Shown here piece after piece: positions 44,875-47,005 of a stretch of 64,000 nt of DNA; position 1 is the stretch's first letter, and each line of letters starts with the position of its first letter. A program made the position numbers and the translations under genes. The notes under the pieces are model-generated. The model saw only the letters and a list, made by a program, of their open reading frames with translations. It had not been told where the DNA came from and did no database searches. Where the stretch lies: contig NC_008390.1 in the NCBI RefSeq assembly GCF_000203915.1, positions 62,001-126,000 of the forward strand, in the 5' to 3' direction. This DNA is from Burkholderia ambifaria AMMD (GTDB taxonomy: Bacteria; Pseudomonadota; Gammaproteobacteria; Burkholderiales; Burkholderiaceae).

Positions 44875-46335
<1,461 letters not shown>

Positions 46336-46440
46336 GGGGCGGGCGTAACGCGGCGGGCGCCGTGCGTCCGCGATGGATACCATGATGGTATCTTTTCGCG
46401 GATCGGAGCCCACGCGACACGCTCAACTCGCCGTGCATGG

Positions 46441-46566
46441 GATCGGAGTCAGCGCGCAAGTGTCCGCTCCGATCGACCGCCGCGAGGAAAGAGTAAGCGC
46501 TGAAGCGCCAACTCTTTCCAAGCGCGGCATGGGACGGGAGTAAGCGCTAAAGCGCCAACTCCCGTC
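46441..46566 (+). repeat. Three tandem covarying hairpins between atpD and atpC
   Basis: Three hairpins, each with 9-bp arms around a 16-base core, start at 46441, 46486 and 46533 (pitch 45-47 bases). Arm pairs are GATCGGAGT/GCTCCGATC (one G-U pair), GGAAAGAGT/ACTCTTTCC and GACGGGAGT/ACTCCCGTC. The cores are CAGCGCGCAAGTGTCC, AAGCGCTGAAGCGCCA and AAGCGCTAAAGCGCCA; each can form four inner base pairs (GCGC with GTGT or GCGC) capped by GCAA, TGAA or TAAA. Arm sequences differ but pairing is kept, which is compensatory change. The last hairpin ends 13 bases before the atpC start. Possible roles are RNA stabilisation, processing or translation control of atpC. Confidence 0.85.
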
Positions 46567-46579
46567 GGCAGGAGTCGAT

Positions 46580-47005
46580 ATGGCAACCATCAAAGTAGAC
46601 GTCGTCAGCGCGGAAGAGCAGATCTTCTCGGGTGAGGCGAAATTCGTCGCGCTGCCGGGCGAAACGGGTGAGCTGGGCATTCTGCCGGGTCACACGCCGC
46701 TGATCACGCGGATTCGTCCGGGTGCGGTGCGCATCGAAGTCGAGGGCGGCAACGACGAATTCGTGTTCGTCGCGGGCGGCATTCTCGAAGTGCAGCCGGG
46801 CGCCGTGACGGTGCTCGCCGACACCGCGATCCGCGGCAAGGACCTCGATGCGGCGAAAGCCGAGGAAGCGCGCAAGCGTGCCGAGGAAACGCTGCAGAAC
46901 GCGAAGTCGGACCTCGACCTCGCAAAGGCGCAATCCGAGCTCGCGACCGCGATGGCGCAGCTTGAGGCGATCCAGCGCCTCGCGAAGATTCGCAGCCGGC
47001 ACTAA
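46580..47005 (+). CDS. atpC: ATP synthase F1 subunit epsilon
   Basis: A 141-residue subunit: an N-terminal beta-sandwich ([40 protein letters not shown]) and a C-terminal two-helix domain ([15 protein letters not shown] onward) that inhibits ATP hydrolysis. The ribosome site GCAGGAG lies between the third upstream hairpin and the ATG. Last gene of the operon. Confidence 0.96.

Follow-up and report, generated by a model that had tools for sequence, protein, structure and literature searches.

A dispersed, probably mobile hairpin family beside ribosome-binding sites of Burkholderiaceae, and its triple array between atpD and atpC of Burkholderia ambifaria

Most descriptions of REP-like repeats treat them as scattered clutter outside genes; tiny mobile hairpins are also known as Rickettsia palindromic elements and as mitochondrial double-hairpin elements. 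The available text of Di Nocera et al. (2013; PMC3733652) describes a superfamily of CGTC-tagged REPs, which carry the tags CGTC, TGTC or CCTC, with CGTC changed to TGTC in many repeats. They have a CCA tail, a stem of 8–9 bp with complementary A/T at positions 1 and 2, and a loop of 4–5 nt. They mostly form head-head dimers, clusters are rare, and according to that text they have no dedicated transposase. Other REPs are mobilised by TnpA-REP proteins (RAYTs), and the available text of PMC8266576 reports that the enzyme of E. coli cleaves at a CT dinucleotide. REP palindromes also show compensatory changes in their stems, as described in the part of PMC2817692 available to us. Our results indicate that the hairpin array between atpD and atpC of Burkholderia ambifaria AMMD is probably related to such systems. 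With a rough probability of 0.8, the array is made up of three units of a miniature mobile palindrome from a REP-like family, and it is one of many dispersed sites where such units lie beside a Shine-Dalgarno sequence (SD).

The window analysed here is a stretch of 64,000 nucleotides (contig NC_008390.1, positions 62,001–126,000), and all coordinates are positions in this window. The atpD-atpC gap (46336–46579) is 244 nt long, and three 34-nt hairpins on the + strand occupy its 3' half, at 46441–46474, 46486–46519 and 46533–46566, with a pitch of 45 and 47 nt. In each copy, a 2x2 internal loop separates a 9-bp outer stem from a 4-bp inner stem, which a tetraloop closes. Folded alone, copies 1, 2 and 3 reach −18.9, −19.0 and −23.0 kcal/mol (z = −5.2, −5.5 and −7.1; 0/200 shuffles equally stable), and they match the family model with E-values of 1.1e-6, 3.5e-4 and 4.8e-11, respectively. 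The region 46430–46580 folds as a whole at −83 kcal/mol (z = −6.35; 0/200 shuffles as stable), which adds an outer stem around hairpin 2 (GCCGCG at 46479–46484 with CGCGGC at 46523–46528). The native SD of atpC (AGGAG, 46570–46574, + strand) starts three bases past hairpin 3 and is also present at two empty sites of other genomes. The atpC gene itself, encoding the ATP synthase epsilon subunit (46580–47005, + strand; Pfam PF02823 and PF00401), begins with ATG at 46580.

These results are in agreement with much of what a sequence-only reading of this DNA had claimed, including three tandem hairpins with 9-bp arms, the caps GCAA, TGAA and TAAA, which the individual folds reproduced, a G-U pair in the arms, which is found as U-G in copy 1, and an array that ends just before the ribosome site of atpC. 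The gap was also said to be unusually long, and it is the longest of 30 Burkholderia gaps (range 107–247 nt, stop codon included). In contrast, the claim of covariation in copy 1, where the inner stem pairs GCGC with GTGT, did not hold, because this stem has two G-U wobbles, and hence one-sided changes rather than true covariation. With its GCAA loop and its wobbles, hairpin 1 looks like the oldest of the three copies.

Around the array, 10 Rfam matches up to E = 10 were obtained in 46300–46700, all far below the gathering score, and a known Rfam RNA was rejected on these grounds. An intrinsic terminator was rejected as well, since the hairpins of the window have no T-run behind them on the top strand. 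A long native stem-loop (46341–46417; −43.6 kcal/mol, z = −4.06) lies 5' of the hairpins in the same gap. At four other Burkholderia loci, arrays start directly after the atpD stop codon and this native stem-loop is gone, as if replaced. Several Burkholderia genomes also have a second, divergent epsilon-like gene with ~42–49% identity (e.g. G319:C2:542158-542541), perhaps from a second ATPase operon.

Comparison of orthologous sites defines the unit. The atpC gaps of 30 Burkholderia genomes (the 30 best loci of 41 genomes, sorted by eye) comprise 2 empty sites, 9 scars, 12 single hairpins and 7 arrays of 3–5 hairpins. The empty site reads CGCTCAACC|AGGAGTCGAT, and in the scars the left-arm GGAG runs directly into the bases that follow the SD. 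Among named genomes, Paraburkholderia sp. BCC1886 is an example with an empty atpC site, and P. piptadeniae one with a filled site. Of 30 purE sites, again sorted by eye, 21 are empty, 8 are filled and 1 is a scar. Here the insert lies within the few bases that separate the upstream stop codon from the SD, as is apparent from an empty site (L441), TGAGCG|AGGAAC, and a filled one (L443), TGAGCG-AGCTTTGCATGG-hairpin-GAC-AGGAAC. At both genes the insert measures ~49 bp and sits immediately 5' of the SD. Its size equals the array period, which is 49 in 141 of 159 junctions. Same-strand arrays of 2–9 units make up 82 of 135 clusters. The unit of ~49 bp thus appears to consist of a 12-nt left flank ending in GCATGG, the 34-nt hairpin and GAC. 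Unit 1 of the window (46429–46477, + strand) has exactly this size, with the left flank CGCCGTGCATGG at 46429–46440, the hairpin at 46441–46474 and GAC at 46475–46477. We infer that the scars at atpC and purE arose by deletion between two GGAG copies, one in the left arm and the other in the SD.

Units are dispersed, and their presence and number differ between orthologous sites. This bears on the proposal of the sequence-only reading that the array could be a device of the atp operon, which would tune the stoichiometry of epsilon, i.e. the alpha3beta3gamma-epsilon ratio, through mRNA processing or translation. The position before atpC and the maintained folding are in line with such a role. 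However, the same hairpins precede nadA, purE, a DUF485 gene and many other unrelated genes. Intact hairpins are missing at atpC in 11 of the 30 Burkholderia, where the site is empty or retains only a scar; absence from close relatives, provided that these express atpC normally, was named by that reading itself as evidence against its proposal. The number of hairpins detected at atpC ranges from 0 to 12, the latter in genome G305, which is not among the 30. A dedicated stoichiometry device is disfavoured by the unrelated genes and by the empty or scarred atpC sites, and we consider it very improbable.

The alternative offered by the sequence-only reading, a dispersed palindromic repeat that inserted here, is borne out by the genome searches for the hairpin and its core. 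With the array as DNA query, 9 matches were found in the own genome, 8 of them outside the array locus. The core pattern with up to 3 mismatches gave 36 matches versus 25 for a reversed control, so that weak pattern matches are mixed with chance; the 20 matches with 0–1 mismatch fall, by eye, in family arrays and rRNA-spacer hairpins. A covariance model, R1, was built from alignment A1 of 41 units and its columns include flank. Applied to the own genome, R1 identified 29 units with E ≤ 0.001, a number that rises to 38 at E ≤ 0.1. Beyond this genome, R1 matches were present in 41/41 Burkholderia genomes (the own genome and 40 drawn), with at least 4–62 units each; scoring was confined to the best candidates, so that unit counts over the surveyed genomes are minimum values. 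Matches were also present in 45 of 120 Burkholderiaceae genomes, covering 8 of 25 genera, and in 4 of 300 Burkholderiales genomes, the own genome included, all four being Burkholderiaceae. Within our survey, the repeat family was seen solely in the Burkholderiaceae. A plasmid collection contained 22 records with matches (Paraburkholderia, Caballeronia and Burkholderia). A phage origin was rejected, since the family model had no match in a phage collection of 50,697 records and an exact search for one pattern had 0 matches in viral_contigs.

In the own genome, arrays lie upstream of atpC, nadA, purE, a DUF485 gene and others. Pfam matches support the names NadA, AIRC (purE), DUF485 and AtpC, while the remaining names, including gltB, were assigned by eye. 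The nadA gene carries units in at least 15 genomes, in regions picked by score. Single family hairpins were also observed at five loci in rRNA operon spacers of the own genome; by eye, these copies sit in the tRNA-Ile/tRNA-Ala and 23S-5S spacers, antisense to the rRNA.

Because the columns of R1 contain flank, a second model, R2, was built from the 34-nt hairpin only, without flank columns, and gave 45, 105, 85 and 157 matches over four genomes at E ≤ 0.05. The location of arrays relative to the SD was counted with R2 in 60 regions taken from the best matches listed (16 of G332, 6 of G305 and 38 of G346; five further arrays of G305 fall outside this sample). These regions contained 70 clusters, of which 61 were kept and 9 below thresholds were dropped. 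In this flank-independent sample, 38/61 arrays lie directly 5' of an SD and start codon, compared to 0/61 in the same test on the other side of the array and 19/897 at random positions. Per genome, the SD-side arrays number 14/17 in G332, 5/6 in G305 and 19/38 in G346. Of the further arrays in G346, 8 are enclosed by leader ORFs in antisense orientation and 3 are located at A-tracts of terminators. Another 12 of the 61 arrays fit none of the location classes, and some of them are nested inside the loop of another hairpin. The R2 count replaces an earlier one, 84/115 arrays with exact GACAGGAG, which was biased because the R1 columns include that flank. At protein genes, units mostly adjoin the SD on its 5' side, in one orientation, and leave the SD intact. 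Such a preference for ribosome-binding sites is unusual. In G346, family hairpins were observed right beside terminator A-tracts at four loci; nested hairpins, one within the loop of another family hairpin, likewise occur at four loci of the survey.

A different arrangement is found in G365, which belongs to another genus of the Burkholderiaceae. In all 20 regions fetched around high-scoring copies, the hairpin is embedded, antisense to the gene that follows, in a longer element. By script, an in-frame start giving a short leader ORF was detected in 16/20, and at three loci this ORF apparently runs on into the next gene. The composite occurs in many near-identical copies. A composite with an antisense hairpin in a short leader ORF was also observed at three loci of G346. 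The own genome has one decayed relative of the composite, at the N-terminal end of a presumed nadC gene; the 110-aa piece taken for NadC had no Pfam match, and the name is our own reading.

The distribution of the units might alternatively reflect selection on a genome-wide cis-regulatory RNA element, in which a protein, or another factor, binds the hairpin and thereby controls translation or decay of many mRNAs. This could explain why units sit just upstream of the SD in a single orientation, the wobble bias on the top strand described below, and the occurrence at the same genes across several species, as at nadA. Retention of the nadA units for a function could also count against our preferred explanation. 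Yet, close relatives differ in the presence of units at atpC and purE, copies also occur in rRNA spacers, at terminator A-tracts and antisense in leader ORFs, and neither the many identical copies of G365 nor the nested copies are expected of such an element. We therefore regard a regulatory element of this kind as quite unlikely.

The hairpin stems are maintained. In the 41 units, 94.2% of the cells are paired and 9/13 pairs have changes on both sides, with 53 cells of both-side changes versus 14.7 in shuffles. For the SD-proximal hairpins of atpC at 30 loci, 94.9% of the cells are paired and 7 pairs have both-side changes, with 41 such cells versus 15.5 in shuffles; these covariation counts are inflated by kinship among the sequences. 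The number of covarying pairs in the atpC set is unremarkable, as 31 of 500 shuffles reach 7. The underlying alignment, A3, has 30 rows of 38 detected hairpins: three without a proper unit, four out of register and one duplicate were dropped, and 15 listed loci where the script detected no hairpin, some of them degenerate hairpins and some empty, are not part of it. Type-B hairpins comprise 32 units with just 6 distinct sequences. Hence, the proposal of the sequence-only reading that RNA structure is under selection stands as far as the fold is maintained, but compensatory changes alone are no proof of an RNA role, since covariation is also seen in REP palindromes.

A second line of analysis concerned the strand on which wobbles pair. 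All distinct hairpins together have 157 G-T versus 105 A-C wobbles (p = 0.0016). The array neighbours, i.e. the units besides the best one of each array, have 134 versus 79 (p = 2e-4), and the filter on the arms by which they were collected makes no distinction between G-T and A-C. Among all distinct hairpins, the bias is reversed at pair 9, beside the internal loop (5 G-T versus 27 A-C), and without this pair, an exclusion decided post hoc, the array neighbours have 130 versus 61 (p = 7e-7). The best units of arrays have 3 versus 4, and the atpC set alone, which is small, has 18 versus 11, which is not significant. No excess of C-to-T was found among linker substitutions on the top strand. 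Stems are thus kept by compensatory changes, and the wobbles in excess pair on the top strand. Folding of the top strand, the message strand at SD sites, therefore appears to be selected, be it in the RNA or in single-stranded DNA.

Quasi-palindromes are known to be corrected at the DNA level when they are replicated, and this might also keep the arms paired, in which case covariation would be uninformative on function. The many units with perfectly palindromic arms fit this explanation. Conversely, it predicts no strand preference, whereas G-T exceeds A-C on the top strand without a C-to-T excess in the linkers, and the 2x2 internal loop stays mismatched. We consider correction an unlikely explanation of the pairing.

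Our preferred explanation, a miniature mobile palindrome, calls for an enzyme. A Y1_Tnp gene was found in 104 of 120 Burkholderiaceae genomes, namely in all 45 carriers of the hairpin and in 59 genomes without hairpins. The own genome has one Y1_Tnp match, beside a glutamate synthase gene. No units were found in the 5-kb regions around the shared gene in 20 genomes (0/20), and the own gene lacks neighbouring units as well. In 21/21 genomes, the HuH motif of the shared protein reads QVQ, AVQ or AVH and the Tyr is a Val. The shared Y1_Tnp was rejected as mobiliser, because these catalytic residues are lost and the gene also occurs in the 59 hairpin-free genomes. Four hairpin-free genomes of another genus have a Y1 protein with both HuH and Tyr, and a second Y1 match is present in G255 (partial) and G380 (strong), outside the 21/21 count. 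An active mobilising enzyme was not found among the Y1_Tnp proteins examined (shared gene, 21 genomes), and no transposition event was observed. Possibly, the shared transposase-like protein, kept despite its lost HuH and Tyr, has been domesticated. On the complementary strand, CT, the dinucleotide cleaved by TnpA-REP of E. coli, bounds the unit on both sides at atpC sites of Paraburkholderia such as L048 and at the filled purE site L443. These boundaries are a lead only, because the Burkholderia atpC inserts have no second CT.

In our model of insertion, an enzyme would recognise the hairpin of the mobile palindrome and link it to the complementary strand at a pyrimidine-rich site, with CTCCT, the complement of the SD, as the presumed target. 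Further insertions or tandem duplications would then lengthen the head-to-tail arrays, and deletion between short GGAG repeats would shorten them. Hairpins that settle beside ribosome-binding sites would become part of the messenger RNA, and those of the window would be transcribed between atpD and atpC. An effect of the atpC hairpins at the mRNA level is plausible. At most they may have a local insulating or stabilising role at the ribosome-binding site, weak enough for species to gain and lose them. A more specific idea is that the translation start region is the main target of the element. It would recognise the SD and leave it intact on insertion, with a mobiliser other than the shared Y1 protein; in one related genus it would have become part of a leader-ORF composite, and the conserved but dead Y1 protein may have been retained for binding the hairpins. 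We regard this idea as tentative and rather doubtful. If true, a portable hairpin given to many leaders would be raw material for regulation at the mRNA level. The empty, filled, multiplied and scarred versions of one gene in dozens of species are natural experiments on leader hairpins and expression, and they raise the sharp question of which enzyme aims at the Shine-Dalgarno sequence.

An earlier description of the family was not found in the literature searched, which covers few subscription papers, and one may exist. The core strings of the family appeared in one paper only, where Table 4 of PMC5968390, in its available text, reports a 25-nt 'CRISPR' repeat of Paraburkholderia terrae, GCGTAAGCGCTAAAGCGCTAACGCC, with 'NI' in the cas column. 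This repeat equals the core of the family hairpin, which suggests that it is a family element. A CRISPR array was rejected for our units, because conserved linkers rather than unique spacers separate them, one linker making up 76 of 159 junctions. The 'double-hairpin RNAs' of PMC5688073, as presented in its available text, are another family (RF02278), and the main text of a B. cenocepacia start-site paper contains neither 'hairpin' nor 'stem-loop'.

Antisense copies in leader ORFs resemble the palindromes within ORFs known as Rickettsia palindromic elements, a likeness at the level of description. Unlike our family, neither these nor the mitochondrial double-hairpin elements are described as SD-directed in the available texts that name them (PMC3733652, PMC2800124). 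The family shares more with the CGTC-tagged REPs as described in PMC3733652. On the complementary strand, TGTC stands at the 5' foot of the palindrome in 55/61 array ends and CCA at its 3' foot in 44/61, the outer stem has 9 bp, and no Y1_Tnp gene is flanked by units (0/20 regions; Y1_Tnp only). In contrast to these REPs, the majority tag inside the arrays is GGTC (112/159), which is outside their tag list, the interior spans 16 nt and contains a further 4-bp stem, where these REPs have a loop of 4–5 nt, and pair 1 is G-C in 256/275 units and pair 2 A-T in 180/275. Furthermore, the arrays run head-to-tail with a 49-bp period instead of forming head-head dimers, and they are SD-side, a term that the main text of PMC3733652 does not use. 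Compared to GTAG REPs, the family lacks the GTAG (GT[A/G]G) tag and has GCATGG as left flank on the top strand and TGTC on the other. It also differs from RAYT-mobilised REPs in that no RAYT gene is flanked by units (0/20) and the shared Y1 protein retains neither HuH nor Tyr. Yet, as in the REPs and BIMEs with TnpA-REP of E. coli and Stenotrophomonas, as far as the available texts of PMC8266576 and PMC2817692 describe them, the unit is a short imperfect palindrome with mid-stem mismatches, which forms mosaic arrays, accumulates compensatory stem changes and is spread through intergenic regions.
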